From Schizochytrium sp. TIO01 (Eukaryota; Sar; Bigyra; Thraustochytrida; Thraustochytriidae): a stretch of 64,000 nucleotides of DNA. The notes under the pieces are model-generated. The model made no database searches. It was given only the letters and a program-made list of their open reading frames with translations, and had not been told where the DNA came from. The DNA lies in NCBI GenBank assembly GCA_004764695.1, contig SMSO01000034.1:2364501-2428500 (forward strand), given 5' to 3'. Shown piece after piece: positions 25,609 through 50,758 of this stretch (within the stretch, counting starts at the first letter, position 1; each line of letters opens with the position of its first letter). A program made the position numbers and the translations under genes.

Positions 25609-26498
25609 ATGTTATACCGCTATTACCTATTAGCTTTGTGTGCAATTCTTTTTCTAGTATTCAAATTGTATCAAAGTGACAAGGCATGGAATATGAAGTA
25701 AACATATGCAACCGTACATTATGGTGTAGGTATCTCTGGTACCAAGTTATTTTTTTTTTTTTTTTACAAGGTTTAAATTGCGTACTCCTCTTCTTAAGTA
25801 AAAGTGGAATTAAAATCGAGGCGCCTCCACTTCAATTTTTGGGCAAGGACAGTTCCAGCAAACCCCAAACTCGGGAGGTCAAACATAAGCGAAGACAAAC
25901 TGGAGAGACTCTGTTCGAAGTACAAGTAGCAATGGGGAACTTCTTTGCACACAATGAGGTAGAGTACATCCACAATACGGATGCCAGAATGACATGGTTT
26001 GCAGCCCTGGAATACTGTCAACGTGAACATGGAGCAAGCCTTGCTACAATTCATTCTCAGGCTGAACAAGAGCGCATTGTTCAAGAGTTTTGCAGAGATG
26101 GCCGAGACTGCTGGCTGGGGATGGTGCCAATCATCAATATTTACGACACGAGCGGCTGGATTTGGCTCGATGGAACTCGTGTCGATTTCAATGGCTTTGC
26201 TGCTGGGGAGCCAAGTGGCAACTTTGACATGAACCCTGGTGCAACATGCGTGTATACATGGACGTATTTTGGCAATGCCTGGGACGACACCACGTGTTTC
26301 TATGAGGCAATGCCGCTATGTGAAATACGCTATAACAACAACTCCTTTGGTGTCAAAATTGCATTTATCATATTTCTTGTCTTTACAATCTGTACACTAT
26401 GCTGTCTCATCTTAAGTTGCTGTTCATCATCAGAGAAGAACGAGGGCGACTCCTCATCCGACATTGAAAATCGCTACAAGAACACGTCAGTAACCTAG
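25609..26498 (+). CDS. Single-pass membrane C-type lectin-like protein
   Basis: The certain part is a frame open from 25686 to TAG 26496-26498. It holds a C-type lectin domain with TWFAALEYC, WLGM, WIWLDG, EPSGN, AWDDTTC and MPLCE; the disulphide cysteines and the WLGM core are present. The EPSGN and WDD positions correspond to the EPN and WND sugar/Ca2+ sites, altered from the canonical motifs, so binding specificity is unclear. A transmembrane helix (FGVKIAFIIFLVFTICTLCC) and a short acidic/Ser tail follow. The N-terminus is uncertain. ATG 25609 (context CAAAAATG) starts a hydrophobic leader LLALCAILFLVF; a GTAAAC donor at 25698 and an AG at 25798 would join it in frame. The ATG at 25686 reads through a T17 tract that looks like an intron acceptor. 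The protein is probably a surface receptor. Confidence 0.75.
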
Positions 26499-31695: not shown

Positions 31696-31752
31696 TTTCT
31701 CTTCAATGTTCTAAATTTCTTTCCATTATAAACTGCAGGCTGTAGTAGGAGT

Positions 31753-32898
31753 ACTGCGGGGCTTTGCAAGCTTTATTTTACATCAAGGTAATATATCGCA
31801 GTTGCACGAACAGCAGTTTGGGTAGAACACTGCCGCTCGTACCAGAAGTTAAGCACAGCCAGCTTTTGCTTCTGAAGCACTTATCTTCCAATGCCAATCA
31901 GCTACCATCTAACTAGTACCCACCACTTGCCACCAAGCTAAGCTGGATACTTCGTAAAGACCGTCAACACAATTACCAAGCTTCAGTGCACGTCCGAAGG
32001 ACTCTGTAGTAAGTCTACTAAAATCTCATGAGTCCTCGCTCTCAATTGGAATAGTTTTCCTAAGGTGTGCAAAGTGCAGCCACTATTAATTTAAGAACTG
32101 CAGCAAGTGCTAATATCGAGATACGAGATACTTTCTACTGATTTAGCGCCCCAAACGGCCCGATTGGTGATTCATGCAAAACCTTCCCGCACACAGATAG
32201 CTGCTCTGATGAGTGGCTGAATGCAGCTGGACCTCCAACACGCAGGGCTTGCCATTAAATCGAAGATTCCAGTTTCTTTCTGGTAACGTTGACTTATAGT
32301 GTCCTATAGCACTCCCAGGCTTCACTGTCATCTTTAAGTTATACAGATACTGAGTAGTTGGTACTAATAGTGAAGTACGCACCCACCCTTACCTTACCCA
32401 GACATTGGGACCTTGTCCAAACTGAAAGCAAAGCAAATCTGTATTAAATATAACAACTTGAATAAGAACTTTACTCTTTACTAAGCTTTATAGGCTGAGA
32501 CACATCCAAACAGAGACATTGTACATAGTCTCGAAGAGTCTCGCGGCAGTTCAAAGAGATCAAGTTCAACTACTCCAAAATCATTTTGACGTGTTGTCGT
32601 AAAGGAGGTGTAGTCACTAGCTCCCAAATCTTGCAAACGATTGGCATATTGCTTCAAGGTGCGTCATTTCTGAAGTGCTGTTTGGCTGGTGCACAAGGAA
32701 ATTTACGTAGACATTCATTCACTTGCTCGGGCAAGAGGTCCTGTTTGGTTTACGCTATAAAGGTACCGAGGCGAGTATTTTAGGTGAGCGTAATATTACA
32801 TTTGCACATAGACCGGTCCTGATGCGAAGTCATTGGGCACACATAGGTGTTGTGTTAGCGTTGCTTTCCGCATTGACGCTGGCAAATGCCCAATCTAA
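31753..32898 (+). repeat. 1.15-kb direct repeat, copy A (upstream region plus signal peptide)
   Basis: Nearly identical to 34761-35904. I count about 11 substitutions in roughly 1.14 kb and one 2-nt indel at the left end, with a constant 3,006-nt offset thereafter. Weaker similarity begins about 55 nt further left. It covers the whole upstream region and the first ~77 nt of the coding sequence. Identity stops abruptly after the signal-peptide codons for NAQS. It includes a minus-strand 79-codon open frame without an ATG (32143-32382), identical in both copies and probably not coding. Confidence 0.95.
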
Positions 32899-33940
32899 TC
32901 CGAATTTAAGAAATGTACAGAATTTTCCGAATAATGGGCTGCCATGCAATGGTACAGGTCCGGACAATTGCAATATCTGTTACTCAAAAAAAGTATGCGC
33001 AGTGTGCGATTCAGGCTACTTTATTGTGCATGGAGATTGTATCCCAACTTTAACTTTCACTTTAACTGTCTTAGTATTCGTGGGGTTCTTTATATGTTGT
33101 TCTCTTTGTATGTCTGGGGCCTGCGATAATTGCTGTCATGCTGTCTGTCATGCTGTCTGTGAGGACTGCTATGATAAGTGCTCTTCTGCATCCTGTCATC
33201 ATCGCTGGGATGATTGCTGTGATAATTGCTGCGATGATTGCTGTGAGGATTGTTGTGATGATTGCTGTGATGATTGCTCCCTTAACAGCAATAGTTGTTG
33301 CTGTCATAACAGAGACTGTTTATGCGCTCTCTGTGTTGGCTGTTGGAGTAGCTGCTGGTGCCTTCAGCAGCGAAGCGCAAGCAGGCTCATGGCAAAGTTA
33401 CCATTTCATAGACACCACAACGAAGTTGCAGGTGTTGTGAGCACGAATCTGAATCAAGGCGATGAAGACAAAATCGAAATTCAAGCAACCGAGCTATTGT
33501 TTGTAGAGAGTAGGCTAAAAACTATAAACGGAAATGGGACCGTCGTGTTTCTGAAAAGAGAGGGAGCAATGCAATCAAAGAAGGCAGCATCAGAATCGTC
33601 AGATTATGGATTTCTCTATTTTGAAGAAGACGCAGTGCGTATTGTTCTGACGCTGGGCTCCGCAGGTGTCAGCAGCGAGCATATTGATCGGACAATTCAG
33701 TATGTAGATTTAATAGTAAGCGATGTACTGATGAAGGATTCCAATTCAAGTTATGAGGCGGATCCTGAGAAAGTCGACGTCAACGGGACGGTTATTACGA
33801 GTGCTGCAGAGCACATTGCTAAAATTAAGAGAATGTTTTCTGAGTACAAAAATGCTTACATGACAAACCAGTCGCCCAGCCAAAATGAGGCATTCGAGCG
33901 ATATCCGATGGCCCACACCGTCTCTGAGCAGCTCAAATAA
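32822..33940 (+). CDS. Cys-rich single-pass receptor-like protein, family member 1 (with juxtamembrane Cys array)
   Basis: The start is the ATG at 32822, directly before signal peptide IGVVLALLSALTLANAQ; the frame extends upstream only with non-ATG codons. About 372 residues. The ectodomain is short: CNGTGPDNCNIC, then CAVCDSGYFIVHGDC, the family's CxxC..GY...C pattern. TM helix about residues 77-97 (FTLTVLVFVGFFICC). Next is an extraordinary Cys array, about 31 Cys in 90 residues, including a run of CCDD-type units (33209-33277). Then LQQRSASRLMAKL and a cytoplasmic domain of about 130 residues shared by the family (LLFVESRLKT, TVVFLKREG, DYGFLYFEEDAVRIVLT, VDVNGTVITSAAEHIAKIKR), ending YPMAHTVSE. 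The pattern resembles a PH/GRAM fold. The Cys array could be palmitoylated or bind metal. Function is unknown; a surface or signalling role is an inference. Confidence 0.8.
   Translation: MRSHWAHIGVVLALLSALTLANAQSNPNLRNVQNFPNNGLPCNGTGPDNCNICYSKKVCAVCDSGYFIVHGDCIPTLTFTLTVLVFVGFFICCSLCMSGACDNCCHAVCHAVCEDCYDKCSSASCHHRWDDCCDNCCDDCCEDCCDDCCDDCSLNSNSCCCHNRDCLCALCVGCWSSCWCLQQRSASRLMAKLPFHRHHNEVAGVVSTNLNQGDEDKIEIQATELLFVESRLKTINGNGTVVFLKREGAMQSKKAASESSDYGFLYFEEDAVRIVLTLGSAGVSSEHIDRTIQYVDLIVSDVLMKDSNSSYEADPEKVDVNGTVITSAAEHIAKIKRMFSEYKNAYMTNQSPSQNEAFERYPMAHTVSEQLK
33209..33277 (+). repeat. 12-nt tandem repeat encoding CCDD units
   Basis: About six degenerate GATGATTGCTGT units, in frame inside family member 1. 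In-frame 12-nt units allow length change without a frameshift. Confidence 0.85.
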
Positions 33941-34760
33941 TCGCGTGGGCTGATGGTAACCTGCAATCCTCAACTCATCACACTATTATAAGTCCTATAA
34001 GATCTAATTAAGATTAGACTGAATTTCATGCAACTCATGTGCCACTCTTTCTCTCTCATTTGATTCACAACTCGATAGATGAAGAGCACGCAGCGTGTGT
34101 CAATCTTTGCCTATATGTAGCAGCTATCACCAGCTCACTCCAGTGACTTGCAGCAGTGATGACAGAGTCCTTAACATGACAAACAATCTGACTTAAAACA
34201 AGCTACAGTAACGTAGTCATATCATCCGTGTCTCCTATCATAACAAAAGTTCCAGGAATAATTATCAAAACCACTGCGGCATCTCCTAATTATACTAAAC
34301 ACATCCCAGTATCTTGTTCGTAGAGCGAGCATTCTAATATCGTTATGAAATGGTCAAAATGTTTCGCATATTTTCAGTGACTTCGGGACAAGCAAGCCTC
34401 TAAGCGTGAGATGAAAACGGATTTCCTAAAAAGAAGAGCGCGTTGGAGAAACTCACGAGACTCTTTTCATGCCATGAAGAGAGTTTGTGCAGATCCGGGA
34501 AACTAAGCACCCAAGTAGTAAATCATTAGTTCTCACAATTAAAAAAATACATATTAATCTCTAGAACTTCAATGTCGGATTATAAACCTTACTTTCCACT
34601 TTTCCAATGCCATATAAATGCTTTTTATTATCTTGAACTCTTCAATACCTTTCTGTTCAATGTCAAGACAGCTCTCACGAGTGTGGTTCGGATCCCAGTG
34701 TTTCTCTTCAGTGCTCTAGATTTGCTTACATTTTAAGCTGCAAGCTGCAATAGTAGGAAT
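33941..34760. other. Intergenic, no gene seen
   Basis: Lies between family members 1 and 2. It ends where copy B of the 1.15-kb repeat begins; the last ~60 nt show weak similarity to the sequence left of copy A. Confidence 0.55.
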
Positions 34761-35904
34761 ACTGCGGGGCTTTGCAAGCTTTATCACATCAAGGTAATAT
34801 ATCGCAGTTGCACGAACAGCAGTTTGGGTAGAACACTGCCGCTCGTACCAGAAGTTAAGCACAGCCAGCTTTTGCTTCTGAAGCACTTATCTTCCAATGC
34901 CAATCAGCTACCATCTAACCAGTACCCACCACTTGCCACCAAGCTAAGCTGGATACTTCGTAAAGACCGTCAACACAATTACCAAGCTTCAGTGCACGTC
35001 CGAAGGACTCTGTAGTAAGTCTACTAAAATCTCATGAGTCCTCGCTCTCAATTGGAATAGTTTTCCTAAGGTGTGCAAAGTGCAGCCACTATTAATTTAA
35101 GAACTGCAGCAAGTGCTAATATCAAGATACGAGATACTTTCTACTGATTTAGCGCCCCAAACGGCCCGATTGGTGATTCATGCAAAACCTTCCCGCACAC
35201 AGATAGCTGCTCTGATGAGTGGCTGAATGCAGCTGGACCTCCAACACGCAGGGCTTGCCATTAAATCGAAGATTCCAGTTTCTTTCTGGTAACGTTGACT
35301 TATAGTGTCCTATAGCACTCCCAGGCTTCACTGTCATCTTTAAGTTATACAGATACTGAGTAGTTGGTACTAATAGTGAAGTACGCACCCACCCTTACCT
35401 TACCCAGACATTGAGACCTTGTCCAAACTGAAAGCAAAGCAAATCTGTATTAAATATAACAACTTGAATAAGAACTTTACTCTTTACTAAGCTTTATAGG
35501 CTGAGACACATCCAAACAGAGACATTGTACATAGTCTCGAAGAGTCTCGCGGCAGTTCAAAGAGATCAAGTTCAACTACTCCAAAATCATTTTGACGTAT
35601 TGTCGTAAAGGAGGTGTAGTCACTGGCTCCCAAATCTTGCAAACGATTGGCAAGTTGCTTCAAGGTGCGTCATTTCTGAAGTGCTGTTTGGCTGGTGCGC
35701 AAGGAAATTTACGTAGACATTTATTCACTTGCTCGGGCAAGAGGTCCTGTTTGGTTTACGTTCTAAAGGTGTCGAGGCGAGTATTTTAGGTGAGCGTAAT
35801 ATTACATTTGCACATAGACCGGTCCTGATGCGAAGTCATTGGGCACACATAGGTGTTGTGTTAGCGTTGCTTTCCGCATTGACGCTGGTAAATGCCCAAT
35901 CTTC
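34761..35904 (+). repeat. 1.15-kb direct repeat, copy B (upstream region plus signal peptide)
   Basis: Partner of copy A at 31753-32898, about 99% identical. After codon ~26 of the downstream gene the two copies cease to align at nucleotide level until the cytoplasmic-domain exons, which are only moderately similar. Confidence 0.95.
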
Positions 35905-36877
35905 GGATTACTTGCGAGGCACAACAATTATACACTGTAATTACACAGCTTTCACGCATTGCGTCACCTGTGTCAACGCGCAATGCGTAGAGTGCGCATC
36001 AGGGTATACACTTCTGGACGGCGACTGTTGGACTAAGGCTGGGAAAATTGCAATGGAAGTGGTCCTTGGCACGGTTGGATCAGCCTTCCTATGTGCTTTG
36101 TTGGGATGCTGTAATCATCCATCCTCCTTAACGGTATGTTGGAACCTTTTGAAGAGAGGGGCCAGCAAGATGGTTTCTTTTCTGAGTTATCTCAGAGATT
36201 GTTTGAGTAGTTGCTGGCGCCGTCAGAAGATACGGGCAGACAAAATGGTAGCTTGTTTGTGTGGTCCCTGCGCTCCCTGTCTGAGTAGTTGTTGGCGCCT
36301 TCAGAAGAGAGGGACAAACAGACTCGTAGCGAATTTTCCATGTCATGGATGCTGCAACAAAGTCGCAGCTGTTGTGAGCACAAATCTTAATGAAGATGGC
36401 GAAGATATATCCGAGGTCCACGCAAGCGAATTGCCATTTACGGAGAGCAAGCTACGAACTATAAACGAAGCTGGGACCTTTATGTTTCTGAAAAGAGAGG
36501 GACAAATGCAATCGAAGAAGTCAGCACCGGAATGGTCAGACTATGGTTTTCTTTTTTTTCAGGAAAACTTAGTGCGTATTATTTTGACTCGAGGATCAGC
36601 AGGAATTGGCAGCGAGCATACTGATCGGGCAATCTCGTATGGGGAGCTAGTAATTAGCGATGTGCAGATGGAGGGTTGCGAGTCAAGTGATGATATAGAT
36701 CATGAGAAAGTTGATGTCAACGGTACAGTTATCACTAGTGATGCGGAGCGCATTGCGAGAATTAAGAGAATGCTCTCCGAGCGCAGGGAAGCTTACATTG
36801 CGAACCAGTCTCCCGACCAAGAGGGCGTTTACGGACCCTATCCAATTGCGGAACCTGTTTCTAAGTACCTCGAATAA
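35828..36877 (+). CDS. Cys-rich single-pass receptor-like protein, family member 2 (repeated CWxxQKR juxtamembrane units)
   Basis: ATG 35828 is the counterpart of 32822 in member 1. About 349 residues. The signal peptide is nearly identical to member 1 (LSALTLVNAQS), but the mature ectodomain differs: CNYTAFTHCVTCVNAQC, then CVECASGYTLLDGDC. TM is in AMEVVLGTVGSAFLCALLG. The juxtamembrane part carries three degenerate 25-26-residue units with CWxLxKR...KMV (CWNLLKRGASKMV; CWRRQKIRADKMV; CWRLQKRGTNRLV); the last two are 78-nt tandem repeats starting at 36200 and 36278. The cytoplasmic domain follows (PFTESKLRTINEAGTFMFLK, DYGFLFFQENLVRIILTRGS, VDVNGTVITSDAERIARIKR), ending YPIAEPVSKY. Same architecture as member 1; function unknown. 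Confidence 0.8.
   Translation: MRSHWAHIGVVLALLSALTLVNAQSSDYLRGTTIIHCNYTAFTHCVTCVNAQCVECASGYTLLDGDCWTKAGKIAMEVVLGTVGSAFLCALLGCCNHPSSLTVCWNLLKRGASKMVSFLSYLRDCLSSCWRRQKIRADKMVACLCGPCAPCLSSCWRLQKRGTNRLVANFPCHGCCNKVAAVVSTNLNEDGEDISEVHASELPFTESKLRTINEAGTFMFLKREGQMQSKKSAPEWSDYGFLFFQENLVRIILTRGSAGIGSEHTDRAISYGELVISDVQMEGCESSDDIDHEKVDVNGTVITSDAERIARIKRMLSERREAYIANQSPDQEGVYGPYPIAEPVSKYLE
36200..36355 (+). repeat. 78-nt tandem repeat in family member 2
   Basis: Two in-frame 26-codon units beginning TGTTTGAGTAGTTGCTGG and TGTCTGAGTAGTTGTTGG. A third, more diverged unit lies just upstream. Confidence 0.8.
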
Positions 36878-38527
36878 ACGCGCAGACTGAATCCTATACC
36901 TTGTCGCAATATTAATCTTGCAAGTTAGTCGAGAGCATCCATATGCCGCTATTTTTCTGCGATGTATTTCACAACGACTTGATCGATGGAGAAAATGTAG
37001 CACATGAATGATGAGTTTTGACCTTTGATTTTGTAAAATATTGTTGTAGCAATGAATTCTGCTAAAAATTCGAATTTTAGCTTTCTCTTTCGTAACATCT
37101 ATGAACATGGAATACTAGTAAGCTAAAACAACGTGGTCGAGCGAATGGTACGGTCACATCATGAGTTTGGGACACTTGAACAGGAGGTGGTTACGAATAT
37201 ACAAGATCGTATCGATTTACTGAATGATGCCTTAAACAACCTTGTAAGCAGTTCTCAGCCATCTACTTGCCACATCTTTTTTAATGGTGATTTTCTCAAT
37301 ACTCAGAATAATTTTCAACTCACTGTGGAAAGCTTGAAAAGGGCTCCACCACGTTCCCAGCGAGGTTTGACAGAATCAATACTCACCAGTGCCGTGAGAG
37401 ATAACCAGTTACATACAGATCAGCACCCTGTGACGACCTTTCTAAAGTGCAATGCATAATTTTTCATTAGGAGCCAGGACTGCGATACAAAATATGGAAA
37501 AGCCGCCACAATGCAAACTTTGGCAGACTCAATCGAGCTAGAAGCAAACTGTATATTAAGTTCAAGTCAAAGGGTTGCTTTGCCTCATCAATGAGGCTTG
37601 AAAGCCTTTGTTGAACCTATAATTAAGTTTTGCGTACTATTTTCATTCTTTTAATAATATCACAAGGAAATAAAAGATACCCTATCTGCTTGCGTTTCGA
37701 GCGGAATTATTTTTCCAAATTGAGAGGGATATTCACTACTTATTCCCCCAACTACTCGCCTTCAGTGACCCAAGTTCACTCAAGCCACGCAATCGTTTCT
37801 AATTCCCCAATATCAGGATTGGCGTATGCCTTTACTTTCCCTACCGACCAACTAAGCGATCTATACCTATATAACTTTAAATGATCTCTCATATTCCGTC
37901 ATTAGTGACTCTTAAATAGATCTACTAGTGTGCAAAATACTCACTTTCATGGCACGATGTCGAGAGGATTTGGACCACCAACACGAAGCTGATACTGGTC
38001 TAACCTCAACCATTGGAGCGAGTAGCGCACCTCTTGCAGGTCTCTCTTCTCAGGAAGCACCGCTGGTTTAATTTGCTTATCCTAAAGCCATTGCTACTGT
38101 TTGTGTACGCCATCTAAATAGAACAATCCAATTAATGGTAGAGGTTGTTTATATAATACTATAGGACCCAGAGGCTCGAATGCTAAACTTGTGCGGAAAC
38201 CAGCGCGTGCCTCGCTGGACTACTCGAAGTAGTTCAAGTCCTTGCCGCAGAGATTCAAGCCAAGTGCTCAAACCACATTTGAATGGGGCAGCACAGAAAA
38301 GGTATTCGTTAGCTCTCTGGTGTTGCAAATAGTCGACCGGTTGACTGTGACTTCAGAGTGATCATCAACTCCTTGCTTGTGCACAATTTGACGAGGATCC
38401 CTAAGTTGTATTCTCAAGTGAGCTGCTTTCTCAAGCAAGAACGCTTAGAGCTACTGCTGGGTAATCAAGAAATAAAGGCAAGGGTTCACCTGGGTCCAAG
38501 AGCACTGGTGTGCATAATTTGGTCCTC
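36878..38527. other. Intergenic; one unsupported open frame
   Basis: A plus frame at 37133-37459 (internal ATG at 37145) reads HEFGTLEQEVVTNIQDRI with helical character, but it has no recognisable domain or homolog here and may be chance. Otherwise nothing was seen. Confidence 0.4.
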
Positions 38528-39379
38528 ATGCAAAGGGGTCCAACGTTTCTAGGTGTCTTAGCAGCGCTGCTTTCTGCTGCGGCACTTGTGGAGGCCCAAA
38601 TTGCACAACATGTAGAAAATGTACAACATGTTCGAAGCGTGTCGGGTGTTATATGTGATACAACCTTAACGCACTGCTTAAGCTGCTTCTCAGTGGGCGT
38701 TTGCGCAGAGTGTGACTCAGGCTATGAAGTGGTGGCGGGAGCATGCGAGGAATCCACATCTTCATCCTCCAGCGGTCTAAGCACTGCTGCTAAAGTTGTT
38801 ATTGAAGTTGCAGTCTCCCTCTTAGTGCTAACATGTTTTTTGTCAACGTGTTGCTGCTGCTATAAGAAACGGATGAAGAGCGAGCTGACATTTACGGAGA
38901 GCAGGCTGCAAACTGTAAATCCTGATGCTGGAACCCTTGTATTTCTGAAACGTCCCGGACAAATGAGCTTCGCGGACTCGGCGCCATCATGGTCAGACTT
39001 TGGTTTTTTGTTTTTCCAAGCTGCTTCTGTACGCCTTGTACGATCACGGGGCTCTGCTGGGGTTGGCGAGGATCTTACGGATGAAAATATTCCATACCAA
39101 GAATTACGAGTCGCCGATGTACTAAAGCAGGATAGCACGGTGGATCCTGAGAAACTCTTCATCAATGGAACAGTCGTCACAAGCGATGCAAGGCGTATTG
39201 CAAAGATCAAATCAATGCTTCACGAGTACAAGGAAGCTTTCACAGCGAGCTTGTCGCCTAGCCCTTATGTTGAAAAAGATTTCATTCCTACAGCCCAGGT
39301 GGTTCCAGACAATGAGCGCTACGAGGCTTTCGGGTCAGCACTAGAAACAACCAGAAGGAAACAACCTCATTGGATTTGA
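38528..39379 (+). CDS. Cys-rich single-pass receptor-like protein, family member 3
   Basis: ATG 38528 aligns with the start of members 1-2 (context GGTCCTCATGC vs GGTCCTGATGC). About 283 residues: signal peptide 1-24 (LGVLAALLSAAALVEAQ), Cys-rich ectodomain about 43-73 (CDTTLTHCLSC, CAECDSGYEVVAGAC), Ser-rich stalk, TM 91-112 ending in Cys run STCCCCYKKR, then the cytoplasmic family domain about 120-240: LTFTESRLQTVNPDAGTLVF, WSDFGFLFFQAASVRLVRSR, IPYQELRVADVL, LFINGTVVTSDARRIAKIKS. The tail PTAQVVPDNE is the clearest form of the shared C-terminal motif. Lacks the long Cys array of member 1, so that insert is optional. The compact domain order makes this the reference member of the family. 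Confidence 0.85.
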   Translation: MQRGPTFLGVLAALLSAAALVEAQIAQHVENVQHVRSVSGVICDTTLTHCLSCFSVGVCAECDSGYEVVAGACEESTSSSSSGLSTAAKVVIEVAVSLLVLTCFLSTCCCCYKKRMKSELTFTESRLQTVNPDAGTLVFLKRPGQMSFADSAPSWSDFGFLFFQAASVRLVRSRGSAGVGEDLTDENIPYQELRVADVLKQDSTVDPEKLFINGTVVTSDARRIAKIKSMLHEYKEAFTASLSPSPYVEKDFIPTAQVVPDNERYEAFGSALETTRRKQPHWI

Positions 39380-39606
39380 AATGCTTGACTATGATCAAGG
39401 AGGAAAGTAATATGAATTATATGCACTCACCCGTTTTACTTTTTCTCTCATATAATTTACAACTAATTAAGAAGCATCTTAAAATTTCAAATTTATACAT
39501 CCAGCTTGCAGCTTTTTACTTTTCTGCGAGGAAAAAGGTTTCGATTGACAGAAGCTTACTTGAATTATCAAATTAGTACAGAAGCATACTCACATAGCGA
39601 GACGAT

Positions 39607-39610
<4 letters not shown>

Positions 39611-39641
<31 letters not shown>
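39611..39641. repeat. (GA)n dinucleotide repeat
   Basis: About 15 AG units. Confidence 0.95.
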
Positions 39642-39646
<5 letters not shown>

Positions 39647-39882
39647 TGCTTCTGAGATTCATTTAGCGCTCATTGCAACTTGAGTTCTAATATTCCACGG
39701 TATGACTCTTTGCATAAAACCAAAACCGCATCAGCATCACAAGAGTAAAGGAATTGATAAAGTCTATAACGAAGAGGACAGTTCTATCACAAAAGGCAAC
39801 ACACTTGATCTATAAAAAACATAAAAAAACAAAATAAACAAATATGTAATCCTCTAGACTCGTCTTGAGATACTCCTGGCAC

Positions 39883-40863
39883 TTACACTCTGCTAGCCTG
39901 GACTCCCCTTTCCACATCAAGGTCATCTGTGCAATCCTCGTCAGGAACAAACTGTGCCATGGGAATTTTCTCGTCAGAGCTTATTCCAGCTCGTTCACGC
40001 CTGTCTATGATCAGATCTCGAATTATGTTTAGGATCTCCTTAGTAGAGTTAATTGCAACATGCTTTCTGCTACCTCCAATAATGAGGCTGTGAATTGGAT
40101 TGATGAGGAGAATGCTTGCAGAGCTTACTTTGGAAATCTCGGCCTCCTCATATGTAAAAAACATATTTTTCCGGCCTTGGACAGGAGTATCGAAGTTATG
40201 ATGAGTTCGCACAACTTCGATGCCAGCGTCAAGGAAGTTGACAAAGCCTAGGTCATGAGCTTGTCGGTCGTTTACATACGATCTGGTGCTAGCCCATTGC
40301 ATATCATTTTCTGTGTGTAGCAGAACCATTTTGCCGGGACGAGACCTTGCCTCTGCGATGAGAACCTTTACCCACCGAGCATCAGACAAGGTATCATCTT
40401 CGCTGCCATTCCCGAGTGGTTTTCGCTCGGCATCTGCAATTATTGTGGGAAGCGCCTGTGAAGATTCGCCTACGCTTGTAAGGCTTTGAGAATGTCCAGA
40501 GGAAACCACTGGAGCCCTGGCAATTTCTCGTGGGTTTACCTCACTTTCATAGTCAATCTTTTGAGGATAAACCCGACTTAGACAAAAACACAATAGAATG
40601 AGGGCCAGGAAGGCAACTATGCCGCACGCCATGCCAATATAAGCTCTTGTGTCTGACTTATCATCCTCACATGTTGCCCACGTGCACTGTCCTCCTGTAG
40701 ATGAGAGATCATAACAGTCTTCACATGCTGTACATATGGTTCCATCAGAATAAGAGCAGGTGACACAGTTCGCAATCCCTCCGCATCCCGCCAGGACGCC
40801 AAATGCCTGAGCCACTATGACCGCTGATGCTAAAATCACTCGCGCTTGCGCTATTGTCAGCAT
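39883..40863 (-). CDS. Cys-rich single-pass receptor-like protein, divergent member 4 (opposite strand)
   Basis: ATG 40863 precedes the signal peptide (ARVILASAVIVAQAFGVLA). About 326 residues, ending at 39883. Ectodomain: CGGIANCVTC, CTACEDCYDL, CTWATC. TM: AYIGMACGIVAFLALILL with trailing Cys. Next comes a linker of about 80 residues (Ser/Pro/Gly, charged) longer than in other members. The family domain is then recognisable though diverged: GKMVLLHTENDMQWA, DLGFVNFLDAGIEVVRTHHN, FFTYEEAEISKV, HVAINSTKEILNIIRDL. The tail is IPMAQFVPDED. The shared order GFxxF..xxxVxVR....Y.E...V, then a terminal helix and PxAxxVP, places it in the family despite low identity. The only intact member on the minus strand. 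Confidence 0.75.
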   Translation of the reverse strand: MLTIAQARVILASAVIVAQAFGVLAGCGGIANCVTCSYSDGTICTACEDCYDLSSTGGQCTWATCEDDKSDTRAYIGMACGIVAFLALILLCFCLSRVYPQKIDYESEVNPREIARAPVVSSGHSQSLTSVGESSQALPTIIADAERKPLGNGSEDDTLSDARWVKVLIAEARSRPGKMVLLHTENDMQWASTRSYVNDRQAHDLGFVNFLDAGIEVVRTHHNFDTPVQGRKNMFFTYEEAEISKVSSASILLINPIHSLIIGGSRKHVAINSTKEILNIIRDLIIDRRERAGISSDEKIPMAQFVPDEDCTDDLDVERGVQASRV

Positions 40864-43232
40864 TGTGAACACCCGTTCAGCCTGTGACAAGCTAGGTACC
40901 TTTAAATTGGAATTGGGATTTGCCTGCTGCTGATGCACCTATACACCAAAGGCCTCAGAATTCTGTAAGTGCTAACCAGTATTACTACTACCTACTACCG
41001 CCAGAACTATTCTTGCTGCGCAGCTCCACACATGACAGTCACGAGTATTCTCGCAATCTATGAAAGCTGTACACAAGTCGTGTGCAAAGCTTAAGGAGCT
41101 TAGTAGCTTGCTGCTCGCCGCGGTGGTTTCTGCTGGACTGTATACTTGTTGGGGCTGTTACCGACAGCGAAGGAGGGAAATTGAAGGCGTTTCTGAACCA
41201 AAGTGAGCAACAGGTAAAATAGAGCAGCAAGAGCAGACTGGCTGCTTAACTTGGCAACCCTCGCGAGCATTCATCGGTACTTATGCCCGTCTCGAGACTT
41301 TGAACTAATCCAAGGTCTTCTATATGGGTAATCTGCTAATGATGTATCAAAAGTCTAAGTCAAAATTCTTATACAAGTCTTGAACAAATTGACGAGGGAG
41401 AACGACGCCTCAGCCATTAAGTATGCACTGTCTTTGTATTGGCTAGCTTCTGAGCAACCATCAAGCTCTTAAGAGTTAGTGGCTGGCTGACGATCCTCCT
41501 ATTTTAGTGTGACAGGCATAGTGGAAGTTATCGAACACCCTACACTAGCTAGGTACAAATCGTAGCAGATGAAGGCGAAACTTCAAAGTTGAAACCGTTG
41601 CGGTTTAAGCGCATCCAGACCGGCTGGCTAGCTGGGAATTCATGATTCGTCCTTCATTTCACAAAGTGACTACCCGACCTACTACAACTTCACGAGTTAT
41701 ATCTACGATGGCACGGTGGTGCCATCAAACTCTATGCCTCTTTAGCATGAAGGCTGCGACCCTACTCTAGGGACCTTGCGATGTATACAATGTGTGCAGG
41801 CAGGTACACACCCCTTCGCTAGGCCATGGAACTTCTGAAACTAGCACGTGCAAATTGAACAGGAACCTCATGAACTGATGCTCTGACTAGTCAAACCATC
41901 TCCTTTATGTCACAAGAGGAAAAGCCAAACGACAAAGAGGACCAGAAAGAAAAGCTTGATAACTAGAAGTGCCTGCTTCGATAAATTTGAGCTACAAGAA
42001 GTGCTCACACCACCACCAAAAGGTCTAGGCGTAGTTTAGGCATTGATATCTGGCTAAATACTTAACTTTTGAGCCTCTTGTGGTCATGTTGATTTGGAAA
42101 TCGCCCCGTGTTGCGGAATAGCACTGTGCAAACAGAGTAGCAACGTAATTTTTTTGATCTCTTAAAATGAAAGGGTTTTCTAGTTATTTCTTTAAAGATA
42201 AAAGAATAGAGGTGGATAAATCCTCGCAGTCTTAAGTTCTCTAATGAATATAATAACTCGCTCTGCTGGTTGGCCACGGAACTCAAAGAGAAACAATTAA
42301 AAAAAATGCATCAGCAGAACTACTCTCATAGTTATCATGTAGAAACGTGAAGAAAATTGATATTTTGTCCACGAACATGGAAAACAAATCAATCAAATTC
42401 CCAGAACCCTCTCAGTAGGACGCGAAAGCTTAAAACCAAGGAGCAAAATAGTTCGGTTATCAAATTTCTGCAGAAGAAAGGAGATCGATAGCCTAGCCCA
42501 TCTGAACTATGGTTTCAATAGCCCGAATTTCTCAAGTAGATCATGTTTGACTAGTAGAAACAAGATTACTCTTTTCAGTGTTGAGTATGCCTTTGTATAA
42601 CATGGCAATACAGACTTCCTCTAAAAACAAGAACAAGAACTGTGAACAAGAAACGGGAAGTCTTTTTAACACCAAAAGTATTTTAGAAATTAGAATTAAA
42701 CATATGTAAAATTGTTCCTCAATTGAACTGTATAACCTAAAATGCTCACAACAGTATTCTTATTTCATATGTACACAGCCTGTGCTTTTACCATGGCTGA
42801 AACTTGTTTGTTTTTAAAACCTGGTTGGTGCACTCGCAGACTACTTTGGGCAGAGTCTTTGCATAAAATACTTGTCAAAATTTAACTCTTATCTCTGGAC
42901 ACGAAGTTGTCAGAAAGGCAATTAGAGGGAATGCTTCAATTCGCTTTACGTAAAAAGCTCTCCGCGCGAAGAGAGCATGATAGCAGCTCTCCTCGGCATT
43001 GGGATTTGCTCTCGCCATCGGGGCGGAAGGAACTCTCTCTGGTTCTGATTTGCAAGCTGCCAACTCGAGGTTGTGTTCTTCTTTGGCGAGATGCGTCAAT
43101 GCGAGGGATGCCTTTAGTAGGGACATAACAGAATCATTTAGACGTTTTCGTCATTTCTTTCTTCAGTTCAGACAACCCCAAGACGCGTTGATTCGCATCT
43201 TGCACATGTTATCCGCTGTCTCCTGATGTTAT
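40864..43232. other. Intergenic; one possible small membrane ORF
   Basis: No standard gene is supported. A 48-codon ATG frame at 41060-41206 (plus) is described separately. The rest shows short frames without features. Confidence 0.5.
41060..41206 (+). CDS. Possible small single-pass membrane peptide (48 aa)
   Basis: ATG 41060 to TGA 41204-41206. It holds one hydrophobic segment (LSSLLLAAVVSAGLYTCWGC) followed by a basic stop-transfer (YRQRRREIE). The CWGCYRQRRR end recalls the short Cys/Arg tail of family member 7 (IRCCRHRNN), so it could be a remnant of the receptor family. No Cys-rich ectodomain. Chance is possible. Confidence 0.2.
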   Translation: MKAVHKSCAKLKELSSLLLAAVVSAGLYTCWGCYRQRRREIEGVSEPK

Positions 43233-43693
43233 TCAAATGGGGCGTGCAGCCGGTATAACCGAATTGGTCTGAGTAGTTGAAAACCCTGCAGTATCTGAAT
43301 CTGTGATTCCTGTTGTAACAGGGACAATAGCGTCATGATTAGGATGTGTCGAATTTGTGTGGCCATCGTGGGGATGCGTTGGATATAGGCAGAGGTGCAG
43401 TTTGTCGGGCATCTTGCTAGCCCAACAACACAGCATGGGCATTAGAAACGCAAAAATTGCTCCACCAAAAGACAGCCGTACAAGTGTTCGTTCGTCTGGT
43501 TTAAAGCCTGTTGATGAATTTGCTGAATTTGCTGAATTTGCGTAACAACTAGACGTGTAATCATCGAGAATGTAACCTTAACACATACGCTACAGTAGCA
43601 TTGAGTCGCAATGGTCTCGCAGAGGCTGCTACGCGGATATAAGTTTCTCAGGTGAGATGCAACTGCTTCTAGAGAAGCAATCGGATCTAGCAA
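43233..43693 (-). pseudogene. Frameshifted copy of the Cys-rich receptor family
   Basis: On the minus strand one frame reads SLCETIATQCYCSVCVK and stops aligning. One base out, the next frame continues GYILDDYTSSCYANSANS, then TM GGAIFAFLMPMLCCW and a tail with PTHPHDG and Ser/Thr-rich residues. The junction (CSVCVK-GYILDDYTSSC, near 43576) fits the family pattern CxxC..GYxL...C exactly if one base is restored, so a 1-nt deletion or an unseen intron is indicated. The first part has no ATG-initiated signal peptide; upstream frames contain stops. The cytoplasmic domain is absent. A sequencing error is a competing explanation for the frameshift but not for the missing leader. Confidence 0.6.
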
Positions 43694-46494
43694 CGGCTTC
43701 GAAACATGGACGTCATTGCTCTTAAGACAAATATCAACTCACGCACAAGCCTGGCTTTTAGCTAAATGAGGTTATGACTGAGATGTAATTTGTGTTACGT
43801 TTTAATAAACGTGGTTGACTCCTATCGTCCCCCCGTCGAGTAATGTCCCTCTAAACCACCTTTGTTATGTACAAGGTCCCCGTAGTACACTGGGTTTGCC
43901 GAAATATTGTAGCATGTGTTATTTTCATATTCTGAGTTATTATCCAGTATATGATCTTTACTCAAAGTAAAAATATTTAAAGGAATAGTTACTTCAAAGT
44001 GATTCAAGTTGAAGGTCACGGTAGAAGAGAAGAGACATGGACTCTTACTTTCCCTTGCAATGCTTCTAATTTAAAATAATAATTCAAGGAACAAGAGCCC
44101 ATACCTAGGCCAGAAAATAATAAGAGAAGGTATCTGACGACAAGACAACGCATAGTCGATTGATTGTTAAGCAGCTTGGAATAAACTTCTTAATTTATCT
44201 TCCGGCTTTACTCCTGAGCAGCAGCAATGAATGTTATGATAGTCGTATCGTAGGTATGCTTCAAGTCTGCCCTGAAAAAACTTCAGATAGACTGAGAATT
44301 ATTTTAAAACAATAGAAAAACATCCATGGCACTCTATGAGCGTGCTGTACATTTTTGCGTTGCATTCTATTGTGCATTACGACGAAACTTGTACATACTT
44401 TAGATATAAATGGTTGTCCTTAAAGTGAGAACTTTTTTCTGGTTTCTTTTCTTCCAAATCTGTCGAGCACGTGCAGTTGCGTTTTTTTTGTTTTCTTTTG
44501 TTTTAATTTAAAAATTGAAATTAAATATATATATATATATTTATGTATTCCAGCACAAACGGTAGTAGGTACATGGTAAAATACATTTGTCTCACACCAA
44601 TTCGAAACTGAAAGATTGTTCTTGTAGTTCAATCATAACAGGAGTCATGTTTCTCGTCAAGCTTGAAGATGCATGAGACATTGCCAAGGAAGTTCATTCG
44701 GATGTCCGGGAAACTCATTTGGGAAACTGGTTCGAAGCGATGACAGCGACTGTGCCTAAAGGGTACTTCTACTTATATTTCCACATGAAAGAGGGATGTC
44801 AGCTATGAAGAACAAAAATTCGCGCGAGTCTTTTCTCGGGAAGGACAACTAGGTGGGTGAGATCTTTGTTTACTGTGTACATAGCTGCATGTGGTACTTC
44901 CGCTGTTAGATCTAACCATCATAATCAAAACGTTCCGCACTATAGCTAGTAGTTGAAAGTTTGTATGATAATGGTTTATATAGCACAATAATGATAATAA
45001 TAATAATATTAATAATGGAAGAAGAAGAAAACTAGTTTCTATTTTATTCTACTTTTCACATTTTCTCTTAAAGTTTGCCCCTTCTTTTCTATTTTCGGTT
45101 TTCTCACGCTGACATCGTCTCAGTTGTGAATGGTTGAATCACACTTGCAGCAAGTCCTGTTCAACCACGATTCGAAAATATAAAGAATATAGTTTAATAC
45201 GAGGGGATACAACTCAAGCTACATTTTCTATGTGCCTTGAATGTCAGCTTCGACATCTCGGTATTAGAGTAAATGCCTTTGTAGATTGCTGGAGCGTACC
45301 CTTGACCGTGTGTACCTCCATATGCAAATTGAAATGATTAGTGTGGGTTTGCACACCAGCTGACTGTTGCGCCGTATTGAAGATAGTAAGCTTTTCGATT
45401 TGGCGTTGACTAACCGACTACGCATCTTTCTTCTTACAAAGACGGATACCCTGTGCCCTCACATAAACTGATGTCTTTGGATCATCTTCATGATGGTGCC
45501 TACATAAAAATTCCAGCTCAGTTGTTTGGGGTATGTTTGCAGTTTTAGAATCCTTGGTATTAGCTGCTTCGGAAAACATTTTCCGAGGCTTCGCATTGTT
45601 TTGTTTTGTTATGTTTTTTTTTTTAGTGAAAGGGAACTGCAAACAAACAAAGAATGCACCAACTTTTACCTGCAAGGTATAATCGATGGTTTTGTTGTGC
45701 ATGTGTCATCTTTCGTTCTCTTCCGTGCGAGAACGTATGTCTTCTGATGGTTTATCTAGAACTGGGGAGAACTGAGTAAATGGCTTTTGCGTTTTCAATA
45801 TCGAGTGTCAAGGTATAGTAATTTCATAAATATGTCACCTTTTAAAAACCTGTGTTGTTGCATATGGGGATCACTTCAACTTTGTTGTTTAAAAATGCCC
45901 TGAGAACCTAAGGCGACCCAACCCATTCATTGTTCTGGCACGGCATAAAACTAATCTTATGTATTGCAAGCAAGTCGAGGCTAGTCTGAATGTAGGCAGC
46001 ACTATAAAATTATCCATCTGAGCACTAAATGGTATTTCTTCCTACAAAATCGTGCACAACATGGGCGCGTGGTTGCTCCCTCTTTCAGGCGTGCATAATT
46101 ATCCGGCCTACCATTATACAGACAAGGGTGCATCTTCAGTTGCAGGCGTGTGCCTAGACTTGGCTCATGCCCATTATGTACAGATGTGCGAGCTCGAAAT
46201 CATCTTTGAACCATCAGGGATGAAGGAGCATGGCCTAGCAGAGAATAGTGTGCTTCGAGAATAACTTATGTCAATTTACCGAGTATAAATGGTGATCTCC
46301 AAAGTATTGAGGAAGGAGAAAAGAAAACAAGAGATTTTACTTCTATATAAAACGCTTACAATTATAACAGTAGGTAGTCTATTCCCTAAGGTAAAATAAG
46401 ACCTGGGCTTGGAGCTTGAGTAGTCGCAGCAAACTAAACAAGCAAACCCGTAACTAGAAATTGCAAGGCGACCAAAACAAAGAAGAGGGTGACC
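43694..46494. other. Intergenic, AT-rich, no gene seen
   Basis: Contains an (AT)9 run near 44524-44541 and (AAT)n near 44990-45015. Short frames such as 46061-46264 lack any recognisable feature. Confidence 0.55.
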
Positions 46495-46971
46495 ATGAAA
46501 ACAATGGCTGTATTGGCAAGCGCTCTGTTCTTATTTTTTGCTCAGCTTACTCAAAGCTATGCAAGCCTGTGCCCATCGCATTGCGAAACATGTGATTATG
46601 TCACAAACACAACATGTCTTACATGCGAGGATGGATATTATGTTAGCAATGGCTTCTGTGCAGTAGATAATGACACGGACACTTCCACTGGAATGGAATC
46701 AACCATCAGAACGGTCATTATAGTTGTGTGTTCATTAGTTGGAGTGATGGTGCTTATTTGCTGTGGTTGTGCATGCGCATATTTAGGAGTCTTTGCATAC
46801 TGTGTCAACAAAGCCGACAATGATGGTACTTTAAAGAACATGAACTTTCAAGCAAGTCATATGGCCGCCTATCCAGGTTCAAACTACCCTAACACACAAA
46901 ACCCTGGCTATCAGAATGAAACTAACCTTACCTCACAAGGTGCGCGCCGTGATTCACACGACATAGCTTAA
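46495..46971 (+). CDS. Small Cys-rich single-pass membrane protein, family member 5 (short tail)
   Basis: ATG 46495 (a second Met at 46504 is also possible) to TAA 46969-46971, about 158 residues. Signal peptide MAVLASALFLFFAQLTQS, then one compact Cys module with CPSHCETC and CLTCEDGYYVSNGFC, the canonical CxxC......CxxC..GY.....C spacing. TM TVIIVVCSLVGVMVLICCGC. The tail has about 55 residues and is Asn/Tyr/Pro-rich (YPGSNYPNTQNPGY), without the PH/GRAM-like domain. The ectodomain and TM place it with the receptor family. The YPxx tail repeats may be interaction motifs. Possibly a decoy or co-receptor form, by inference only. Confidence 0.75.
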   Translation: MKTMAVLASALFLFFAQLTQSYASLCPSHCETCDYVTNTTCLTCEDGYYVSNGFCAVDNDTDTSTGMESTIRTVIIVVCSLVGVMVLICCGCACAYLGVFAYCVNKADNDGTLKNMNFQASHMAAYPGSNYPNTQNPGYQNETNLTSQGARRDSHDIA

Positions 46972-48687
46972 TAACACAAAACTGAAGCAAAACGTATGCC
47001 CAGAAAAATTATGATTCGTAAAGGCTTGTTTACCCCTTGACGCGACTATCATTAGCCCAAGCGAGCGTGCCTTTTTCCTTTTGCTGATTTTTGCACCCCT
47101 TCAAAGTTCTTGAACAGATAAATATATGGTAAATCAATATACATAGAACGTTTCAGCATTTTCTTAATTCTTCCACAGGACTTGATTTTATGATTCGCCC
47201 AAGTTCATACATTACTGCAACTTTGATCTGATATATACTACAGGATTTTGTAAAGACGATCTGCTCATTTGAGTGAAGACAAGGAGAATAAACGTCACAT
47301 GATCATACCTAATATTCCATTAGAAAAATGCTCTTGGGATTTTTTTTTATAAATTCCTATGTAGGCAAGCACTCCACAAGTCTCTCCTTGCAGCACACCT
47401 GAGTTACTCTTAAATACCAGGCCCCTTTTCAACGACAATTCTTTGATAGAAGAGGTTCCCTGCCGTACTGTCTGAACAATGATATTTGAGAAACCATTGT
47501 AAGTCACTATTCCTAAAACACAATAACTTGCTGTAAAATTGAACTTTGACGTTATTAAAGACGCAAGAATCTATGCAAATGTTTCTTTACAGAAAAAGAC
47601 TTTGCCAATTTTCCTTTTAAAAAAAAAAAAAGCTGAGTTGATGGCATATGAACTTCTGAACGAGTCCTTTTTATCGCATACAAGCACGATTATTCAAGGT
47701 AAGAAGCAGTAAATTGCAACTTTTTCAAAAGGGATCCGGAAAATTGCCAGGTCTCAAAGGTAAGTCAGCAGGGCGGTGCAGCCTTCCCTGCCGTTGGATT
47801 TCACCTCTGGCTAAAACTAGGTCGAGTTCAGAGAGCCCCGAGCTACATTCAGGACGAGGTTGCTTGAAACGTGCGTGCAGTCTGGGGCCAATCACTGATA
47901 CCGCACTCCCTCGCTCGTTCGCTGGCCAGATTCGTGCTTACTCAGTCCCCTTCGAATTCGTTGTATTTCACCAATTTAACGCTACAAACATACCTGGCAA
48001 CACAGCATACCAGGACTTCGGTTCTTGGAACCGGTCCCGCTGCCCTAGTGAGCTTGTTTGTGTCTTGCTCATGACGAAGATCGTAATGATCATGGACGGC
48101 CATACTGTTACTAGTACATCATGTCTGATTCCTAGTACCTTTCGCCTACTGCACACGCTAGGAATCCTGTACGTGCCAAGGTGTGTAGGCAGACACGCGC
48201 TGCTCTCCATTTGCCGATACCTGTTGCATAAACAAGAGTCTTACTACTTTGGCTCAATTTATAGCCATCCGTATTTACTTGAGGTTAGCTAGAGTGAAAG
48301 GGTTGTTGAAGGAGCAGTACCTAGGAACCAACGCTGAGTGAGTAGCTAGCTATCTCTCGCTTGGGAAGAAGGTGTCAATTCACTCGCGGAGTAGTAGGTA
48401 GCGCCTAGTACTCGTATAGATTGAACTAAAGGCCAATGCTCTCATGCAGTTAATAGCGGCTATTGCACTTCCCTGAACGTCGGGAGTTCCAAGTTGAAGA
48501 GCGTCTTGCGCTGAGATAGATTAAATTAGAAGCCGAATTGGCTGGAGGCTTTGAGTGTGTAAGGGTTGCGGATATAAGTAGGCATGGTAGACGTGAAGCC
48601 GACAGCCAGCTCGCGTCGATCAAGCAAACCCGAAATAGATCGACTTGTTCACATGACGCTTCTGCGCACAGATTTGGACAAAGATTG
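46972..48687. other. Intergenic; open frames without support
   Basis: A plus frame at 47714-48292 has no ATG-supported start and no domain. No gene is recognised. The right part must hold the promoter of member 6. Confidence 0.45.
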
Positions 48688-49533
48688 ATGGTAGGGGAAA
48701 TGCGATCTAGCTTTGGCGGGCTGCTGAGGGTGCTTATTGCGGGGCTCCTGACAGTCGTTTTGCAAGTACAGGCCAAGTCATGTGGCAGCCTTCAGATAGA
48801 CAATTGCCTCGCGTGTAAATACGATGGTGTTGACGTCCTCGATGAGTGCTGGACATGCCACGCAAGGTACAAGCTTCAAAACAACGCGACGAGCTGTGTA
48901 CGCTTTCACCTGGTCCCAATATATGGCGCCGTGCTCATAACCGTTGGCGTGATCGCGATCATAGCATTTGGCGTTTACTTGAAAATGTACGGATTTCGCT
49001 TTGAGTCTGACCAAACCTGGCTCAAGAAGCGTTTGGAGAATGAAAAGAGCGCCAGTGGCAATGGACTCTTTCTCTACTTTCTTCGTAAGCCAGAAAACAG
49101 CCCGCCAGGCTTTGGAGATGAAGGATTCGAGCGGAACAAGAAAAATAAAGATCGGTGGAAGGCCCCTGCTTTTCGCAGCTATGATATTGGTTTTGTAGCC
49201 TTTCGAGAAGACACGGTGCGAGTTGTTCTGTGCTCTTCACCCGAAAGCAAGGCCAGAAGACGCTGTGATCAGGTTTTCAAATATGAAAAAGTCACCCTGG
49301 TCTCCATGGTGAAACCAAATGGCGACTATGATCCCACTAGAATTCGTATTGGAGATTTGGCTATTGGAGCAGAGGTCAACCGTATCAGCGTGGTCCGCAA
49401 CCGCTTCAAAGAGTACAAGCAGCATGCACTAAGCACCCATGTTGAAGGTCAAGAGGTTGGCCTTCCCACTGCTACTATCGTCCCAGAGGACAACGATCAA
49501 CATTTCTCATTCTCAAACCCAAGTACACATTAG
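48688..49533 (+). CDS. Cys-rich single-pass receptor-like protein, member 6 (divergent)
   Basis: The start is ATG 48688 (or 48700), just before the signal peptide LLRVLIAGLLTVVLQVQA; the upstream extension is non-ATG and hydrophilic. About 281 residues. Ectodomain: CGSLQIDNCLACKYDG, CWTCHARYKLQNNATSC (GY replaced by RY). TM IYGAVLITVGVIAIIAFGVY. The cytoplasmic family domain: WLKKRLENEKSASGNGLFLY, FLRKPENSPP (an insertion of charged residues follows), SYDIGFVAFREDTVRVVLCS, FKYEKVTLVSMV, YDPTRIRIGDLAIG, VNRISVVRNRFKEYKQHA. C-terminal motif LPTATIVPEDN. The terminal helix and PTAxxVPxDN tail are the clearest links to member 3. Codons are more GC-rich than in the neighbouring intergenic DNA. Confidence 0.8.
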   Translation: MVGEMRSSFGGLLRVLIAGLLTVVLQVQAKSCGSLQIDNCLACKYDGVDVLDECWTCHARYKLQNNATSCVRFHLVPIYGAVLITVGVIAIIAFGVYLKMYGFRFESDQTWLKKRLENEKSASGNGLFLYFLRKPENSPPGFGDEGFERNKKNKDRWKAPAFRSYDIGFVAFREDTVRVVLCSSPESKARRRCDQVFKYEKVTLVSMVKPNGDYDPTRIRIGDLAIGAEVNRISVVRNRFKEYKQHALSTHVEGQEVGLPTATIVPEDNDQHFSFSNPSTH

Positions 49534-50407
49534 TGGTAGCGTTCAATTATCATACGTTTGGGCCTTTGCAAATACACTTTGCGTCAGTTGGGGTTTAGCC
49601 TCAGCTTTTCATGTGATCATATTATAATCAAGCAAGTTAATTCAGGTGGCTACGAGTCATCAACTTTGGAATCCTAACTCTACAATGAATACGAAGACTT
49701 TTTCGATATATACTTCAGAATAAAATCTCTATAAATTAACAACTGATTGTGTTCCGGCAGGTTATACCTGCTTAGATTTCTAGCTCGACTGTTTGTGTCC
49801 ACGCAAAGAAATTACGTTCACGTGGCGTGTGCAGCACGTACGACTCATCCAATCGTATCATTTCTTTGCCGAGCATTCTCATTATGTCCCATAGGGACAC
49901 TATGATAAATAATGGTGTGCACTACGAGGCATTTTCTGAGGGCATACACCCCTTCAGTCGTAGTCGTAATTGCTGGTCGAAATTGCATGTAAAGGATGTA
50001 ACTTAGTGCTATTGCCATGACACTTCAAAGCAAAGCTTTGCGGTGACATGCTTTTCTATAATGCTTTTTGGCACCATGGTAGCATTGAGACTTTCAATCT
50101 CTTTCATTTGATTTTAAAAATCCAAGTTTGCCATTAGTTTTGAAGGTACATGTCTGTCGGTGCACACTATGTCACCACCATTATGATGGCCGCCGCGACC
50201 ATGGTAGTCATGATCGTCAAGTCATTCCATTGACAAGGCCAATATTATGACTCTATTCATCAGCCGTACACTTTCAAATTCGCATCCCAATCAAGCAAAC
50301 GATTATTCTCCAAGCAGAGGTTGGTCGTTTTTTATACAGCTTTCAAAGTCTCAGCAGTTCTACAATCAAACGAGTTGACTAAAAGGCAGGGCTTTACATC
50401 TTGCAAG
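49534..50407. other. Intergenic, no gene seen
   Basis: AT-rich separator between members 6 and 7. Confidence 0.55.
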
Positions 50408-50758
50408 ATGAGACACGAGGCCGCCATGAGCTTTTTGAAGGTCTCCATGATCTTAGTTGCCGTGGTAATATTCTTTCTCACGGATATAGTATATGCTATT
50501 GATTGTTCTGGGAAGGACATCACGCATTGCGAAGTCTGCGTTAAAGATGATCAACTATGCCAAGAGTGCAGCTCTGGATACCACCTCAATTTTGATGGAG
50601 ACGATTGCAATGTCCGTGGTGTCACAGAATCCTCGAACACCACAAGTTCTGCTGCTCTTAATGCTACATCACGCATCCTTGTTGGCGTTGGCGCAGCTGC
50701 TTTCGTTATTCTCATTTGTGGGTGCATGATAAGGTGCTGCCGCCATCGTAACAACTAA
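50408..50758 (+). CDS. Small Cys-rich single-pass membrane protein, member 7 (tailless)
   Basis: ATG 50408 (MRHEAAM; a second Met at 50426 is also possible) to TAA 50756-50758, about 116 residues. Signal peptide VSMILVAVVIFFLTDIVYA; Cys module CSGKDITHCEVC and CQECSSGYHLNFDGDDC (exact family spacing); a Ser/Thr/Asn stalk with N-glycosylation sites (NTT, NAT); TM RILVGVGAAAFVILICGC; a six- to eight-residue tail IRCCRHRNN. The cytoplasmic domain is missing altogether, so it cannot signal in the way the long members might. With member 5 it shows that the ectodomain-TM module occurs without the domain. Confidence 0.75.
   Translation: MRHEAAMSFLKVSMILVAVVIFFLTDIVYAIDCSGKDITHCEVCVKDDQLCQECSSGYHLNFDGDDCNVRGVTESSNTTSSAALNATSRILVGVGAAAFVILICGCMIRCCRHRNN

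Follow-up and report, generated by a model that had tools for sequence, protein, structure and literature searches.

The analysed window, a stretch of 64,000 nucleotides of Schizochytrium sp. TIO01 (contig SMSO01000034.1, positions 2,364,501 to 2,428,500), carries within about 18 kb (32822..50758) a cluster of seven related open reading frames (ORFs). They are predicted to encode small surface proteins, in which an ectodomain best read as a single furin-like (FU) repeat is joined through one transmembrane (TM) segment to a cytoplasmic domain that we assign, with moderate confidence, to the PH superfold. Both modules are known ones, and we could not match their combination to any named family found. 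The five long members (M1 to M5), of 281-372 amino acids (aa), consist of Cys module, TM segment, cytoplasmic domain and a PxAxxV tail, and the two short members (S1 at 46495 and S2 at 50408) stop after the TM segment. The genes, and for M3 the parts of the protein, are the following.

32822..33940, plus strand: M1, full member, 372 aa; signal peptide, furin-like module, TM, long Cys-rich juxtamembrane stretch, PH-like domain and YPMAHTVS tail
35828..36877, plus strand: M2, full member, 349 aa; layout as M1, with YPIAEPVS tail
38528..39379, plus strand: M3, full member, 283 aa, with IPTAQVVP tail
38654..38746, plus strand: furin-like module of M3, first to last Cys (profile of eight modules against R-spondin FU repeats)
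38795..38851, plus strand: transmembrane stretch of M3 (hydropathy), at whose cytoplasmic end cysteines are clustered
38927..39250, plus strand: PH-like core of M3, seven strands and then a C-terminal helix (AlphaFold2 model)
39287..39307, plus strand: C-terminal PTAQVVP tail motif of M3 (P, A and V invariant in five members)
39883..40863, minus strand: M4, full member, 326 aa, divergent branch, with IPMAQFVP tail and its own PH-like model
46495..46971, plus strand: S1, short member, 158 aa; furin-like module and TM, without PH-like domain
48688..49533, plus strand: M5, full member, 281 aa, with LPTATIVP tail
50408..50758, plus strand: S2, short and weakest member, 116 aa; furin-like module and TM, without PH-like domain

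The original prediction of five full and two short members held for all seven, in position and strand, in the ORF listing of the window; six of the seven genes lie on the same strand, M4 being the one on the minus strand. The signal peptide and single TM segment that it gave to each protein were recovered by hydropathy in six of the seven, where both the N-terminus and a single TM stretch further on pass the cut-off, but in S1 only the TM stretch does so. It should be noted that the N-terminal call is one of hydropathy and that the cleavage sites of the signal peptides were judged by eye. The five long frames are not chance frames, since the longest ATG-initiated ORF in 200 simulated 18-kb stretches of local intergenic composition was only 191 aa long. 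At 158 and 116 aa, the two short ORFs could be chance frames as far as length goes, and their case is one of sequence similarity. S1 and L013, a family gene outside the cluster that is described below, are mutual matches (E 5.8e-8 from S1 to L013, and E 1.9e-7 in reverse). Support for S2 is weak: it is matched from M3 at E 0.029 and, in a comparison of nine proteins, at E 1.6e-5 or 0.028, depending on the direction; as a genome-wide query it found no other member, giving weak matches on other contigs (L029, E 0.07; L030, E 0.15). A broken copy had also been claimed, at about 43233-43693. When the seven ORFs were masked and the nine family proteins were searched by tblastn against the window, no match was obtained there up to E 5, nor was the copy found on reading all six frames. 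The 5.1-kb interval 41200-46300, compared with the genome in a search that skips very common words, matched only itself and two short stretches of contig C24.

For the ectodomain, the pattern CxxC...CxxC..GY...C had been proposed. Its Cys and Tyr positions are borne out by the alignment: all eight modules (the seven of the window and that of L013) have the same five Cys and one Tyr, with the spacing C-x2-C-x4-10-C-x2-C-x3-Y-x6-8-C. When a profile of the eight modules was compared with PDB sequences, R-spondin FU repeats were the top 13 of the 17 matches at E 10 or less (best E 1.6e-4), and 13 of the 14 PDB matches of a full-length family profile were likewise R-spondins. Across the whole genome, the Pfam model Furin-like_2 (PF15913) found its best match in the M1 module, which scores 22.8 bits and so falls short of the cut-off of 28; a match below the cut-off also turned up in one of 14 control genomes. 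The sole other match in the genome (L040, E 0.0078) contains two stops, runs antisense to an open frame of 890 codons and was taken as chance. Furin-like_2 was not among the Pfam matches of the seven window proteins up to E 1. Because the profile matches R-spondin repeats and the M1 module is the top Furin-like_2 match, the ectodomain is best read as one FU repeat, closest to that of R-spondin, with a Cys spacing that fits FU repeats and a score under the curated cut-off of PF15913. R-spondins are secreted proteins. The module spacing found here fits the R-spondin repeat, with F replacing Y. According to the accessible part of one description, R-spondins combine two furin-like repeats with a thrombospondin domain (PMC4926470), whereas here one repeat, below the Pfam cut-off, stands on a membrane protein in which the Pfam scan gave no thrombospondin match.

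Alignment of the five long members revealed a shared cytoplasmic block in which G, L, D, GF, F and Y are invariant, as are the P, A and V of the tail. Of the block that had been claimed as common, the GF, F and Y core is present in all five, but NGTVVTSDAxRIAKIK is confined, with small changes, to M1, M2 and M3, to which the cytoplasmic parts of M4 and M5 are 19-25% identical. Elsewhere in the genome the block is kept in the family gene L014, and mostly in L013. An AlphaFold2 model of the cytoplasmic domain of M3, built on a five-row alignment, has seven strands and a 21-residue C-terminal helix (104-124), with a predicted local distance difference test score (pLDDT) of at least 90 in 61 of 166 residues and of 60-78 in loop blocks; the model of M4 has six strands of at least three residues each and a helix. 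Among the best 50 of 315 Foldseek matches of the M3 model, 49 were PH-superfold chains, with the aligned part of multi-domain chains assumed; for the M4 model they were 42 of the best 50 of 391. In VIA comparisons, the count was 49 of the best 50 rows for each model. In all these counts, chains were classed by title and general fold knowledge. The match scores are moderate, with no Foldseek E below 0.001, and a search of a viral structure library produced nothing at E 0.001 or less. Neither PH nor GRAM models appeared in Pfam searches of the seven proteins up to E 1, or of five of them up to E 10 (filters drop most matches above about 0.1), and profile search reached no sequence family of the PH superfold. 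Isolated Pfam matches to CD4 tail, plant CR domain, cytidylate kinase, SARAF and BRINP were below the cut-off, in one protein each, and were set aside. Receptor kinases with Cys-rich ectodomains have a cytoplasmic protein kinase domain, and hmmscan matched no protein kinase model here. Taken together, the cytoplasmic domain is moderately well placed in the PH superfold by the two models. At the level of the fold, the PH/GRAM-like proposal therefore stands, but GRAM is not singled out, because PH, PTB and FERM-F3 domains score alike and VIA rows within 1 Z unit are tied.

The canonical phosphoinositide motif of PH domains is K-x(3-20)-[KR]-x-R, located in the first strands. Within residues 11-75 of the fragment, this motif is absent from four of the five domains, and the sole match, in M5, spans the first strand into a long insert. 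Over the first 125 residues, M1 to M5 carry net charges of -5, -6, -3, +1 and +6, respectively, so that three of the five domains are acidic. The lipid binding suggested at the outset is thus unsupported: with the motif missing in four domains and three domains acidic, it becomes less likely, and the better guess is that the PH-like domain binds protein, as PTB and FERM-F3 domains do.

As for the C-terminal tail, which had been given as PxAxxVP, PxAxxV is present in all five long members, but M1 and M2 have S after the V. The P-x-A-x-x-V pattern is kept in all five window members with a cytoplasmic domain and also in L014; among the 54 window ORFs of at least 80 aa, it occurs in the five members and once more, internally, in an unrelated ORF of 1176 aa. 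Since it is kept although identity between members drops to about 20%, PxAxxV is probably a docking motif. On the same contig as the window, locus L037 (3667-8959, minus strand) holds a 1665-aa Cys-rich ORF followed by an ORF in another frame with PMATTVS, which resembles the family tail. This hints that other membrane proteins may use PxAxxV, a hint weakened by the internal occurrence of the pattern in the unrelated window ORF.

The genome searched comprises 37 contigs with a total of 64.06 Mb; the window is part of contig C33 (4.85 Mb). Five window proteins (all but M1 and M2) and then L013 and L014 served as queries. These two members, the only ones found outside the cluster, bring the family to nine genes, and both are on C33.

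C33:2473419-2474219, minus strand: L013, 267 aa; module, TM and most of the cytoplasmic domain, stopping before the last helix and the tail
C33:3206423-3207139, plus strand: L014, 239 aa; TM, cytoplasmic domain and IPMAKMV tail, with no ectodomain in frame

With M4 as query, L013 was found at E 6.6e-17 and L014 at E 4.9e-11; M5, used genome-wide, found M3 at E 4.4e-6. Off C33, the matches were weak (E 0.07 and 0.15, the two mentioned above), in searches that score the best candidates only, and more distant members may exist. If loci were placed at random by length, the chance of both outlying ones falling on C33 would be 0.006, a figure that ignores both the commonness of nearby duplication and the non-exhaustive searches. 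The family falls into two branches, one with M1, M2, M3 and M5 and the other with M4, L013 and L014, which are homologous (hhalign probability 96.9, E 1.7e-10). Two further candidates were rejected: L010 (E 0.39) has short frames only and was taken as chance, and the M3 match at E 0.55 (L011/L037) lies in a large Cys-rich ORF that is not a family member. Pattern searches confirmed no relatives of M3 or M4 in viral contigs (0 of 8 and 3 matches, respectively) and none of the M2 cytoplasmic part in genome contigs (0 of 80), and no relative of M3 was found in phages. Thus far, the family has been found in one genome only.

The evolution of the cluster can be followed in its first two genes, which share an upstream block.

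31694..32896, plus strand: upstream region and first 25 codons (signal peptide) of the M1 gene (blastn self-comparison, base-level view)
34699..35902, plus strand: second copy of the upstream and signal-peptide block (blastn self-comparison, base-level view)

No further copy was found in the 64-Mb genome. Over 1206 columns the two share 97.5% identity, with long fully identical stretches, and the likeness, which covers about 1.2 kb upstream and the signal peptide, stops at codon 25. Accordingly, M1 and M2 agree at 23 of 24 positions in the signal peptide, at 16 of 47 (34%) in the ectodomain and at 122 of 207 in the part after 33317. Nonsynonymous (dN) and synonymous (dS) divergence are 0.25 and 0.76 over 150 cytoplasmic codons (dN/dS 0.32), and 0.28 and 0.82 over 57 juxtamembrane codons (dN/dS 0.34). 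A dN/dS of about 0.3 indicates purifying selection on the protein, and a downstream dS of about 0.8 indicates that the duplication is old and that the 5' block was copied later, presumably by gene conversion or a local duplication. The sharp end of the identical block offers a clear case for studying how clustered surface genes may retain a shared upstream sequence as their mature proteins drift apart. The window contains no tRNAs and no Rfam matches over the gathering score. In M1, the cytoplasmic juxtamembrane stretch (33110-33391, plus strand) contains repeated DDCC units, and the protein has 37 cysteines; this stretch is absent from M3, and M2 has a different one in its place.

To our knowledge, type I receptors whose tail is a PH-like domain are not an established receptor class, and we know of little work on how such protists sense their surroundings. 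The predicted strands followed by a C-terminal helix have the arrangement of the PH superfold, a barrel of about seven strands closed by a C-terminal helix that includes PH, PTB, FERM-F3 and GRAM-like domains; the difference is that here there is no sequence-family match, the phosphoinositide motif is mostly absent and a type I membrane protein has the domain as its tail. Giardia variant surface proteins have a CxxC-rich ectodomain with many CxxC repeats, one TM and a very short constant tail; CxxC and the single TM are alike in the present family, but the module is single and the cytoplasmic domain is predicted to be folded. In genetic layout, the closest system, as far as the available parts of the sources describe it, is Tetrahymena MTA/MTB, with a furin-like Cys region and TM segments, arrayed genes and a variable extracellular part (PMC3608545, PMC10901506). 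According to the same excerpts, MTA and MTB have five TM helices, are proteins of 161 and 194 kDa and form head-to-head pairs that are completed by programmed DNA rearrangement (PMC3608545, PMC10901506), whereas the proteins studied here have one TM besides the hydrophobic N-terminus, the long ones are 281-372 aa in length, and six of the seven genes are on the same strand. These excerpts mention no PH-like domain for MTA/MTB. In the portions available of the literature on thraustochytrid or labyrinthulomycete receptors, and on single-pass furin-like proteins with PH domains, we met no such family. The view that the proteins belong to no named family is upheld in that no Pfam cut-off was reached and no description was met in those portions, but needs to be qualified in that the ectodomain is a known furin-like repeat. 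With a domain of about 110 residues and a tail motif of seven, the family offers compact targets for expression and testing.

We favor, at about an even chance, the view that these proteins are type I single-pass surface receptors or co-receptors acting via a protein-binding PH-like domain. The layout in this view, in which cysteines often follow the TM segment, comes from the sequence and the PH superfold from the models, and the functional steps are those that we infer. The small, fast-changing FU module would bind a ligand or a partner chain, and the PH-like domain would be a PTB- or FERM-F3-like protein-binding platform at the membrane, where juxtamembrane cysteines, perhaps palmitoylated, could help to hold it. 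The PxAxxV tail may dock an adaptor or fold back onto the PH-like domain, and the two short members may act as co-receptors or dampers. Tandem duplication would expand the family; in its first two genes, the upstream region and the signal peptide would later have been homogenised, giving matched expression of differing mature parts. A possible, though rather unlikely, alternative is that the proteins serve the secretory or endocytic route as cargo or sorting receptors and are not signalling receptors, the FU module binding lumenal cargo and the PH-like domain and PxAxxV recruiting coat or tethering factors; however, the tied structure rows single out no PH subtype, and rapidly changing ectodomains encoded by clustered genes suit variable ligands more than a constant cargo.

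The predicted PH superfold would also suit phosphoinositide-binding receptors, with a PH/GRAM-like domain that attaches to membrane lipid and governs clustering or trafficking, but the distribution of the motif and the net charges given above make this improbable. Just as doubtful is the reading of the family as lineage-specific and in turnover, retaining little function, with a likeness that reflects recent shared descent. It would account for the two members without a PH-like domain, for L013 stopping before the last helix and tail, and for the L014 frame lacking an ectodomain, but not for the M1/M2 dN/dS, nor for the GF..F...Y core and PxAxxV tail persisting at only about 20% identity between members. 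We likewise give little probability to the cluster being a receptor locus for self/non-self or mating recognition in a stramenopile-like protist, with a new type of PH-like signalling tail. Such a locus would combine fast-diverging FU ectodomains, a promoter and signal-peptide cassette spread by gene conversion, and tail-less partners.

Several other ORFs of the window lie outside the receptor cluster. Two tandem related small ORFs (7559-8062 and 9326-10045, both plus strand), hydrophobic by eye, are 66% identical over 254 bases, and the first has no Pfam match at E 0.01. A lysine/arginine-rich low-complexity ORF of 210 aa (21107-21739, minus strand) is probably not a gene. Beyond the cluster, two tandem giant ORFs (51684-57014 and 59055-64000, both minus strand) are 67-69% identical in DNA over two stretches, and the former has AMP-binding, DIP2-like and carrier domains, with a hexapeptide match just below the cut-off. 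Adjoining the cluster, 27524-28822 (minus strand) encodes a protein with a Hint (hedgehog-type self-processing) module (E 1.7e-9). Upstream of the cluster, 25686-26498 (plus strand) encodes a C-type lectin domain protein (Pfam Lectin_C, E 4.4e-12) that, by eye, has a hydrophobic stretch with cysteines near its C-terminus.

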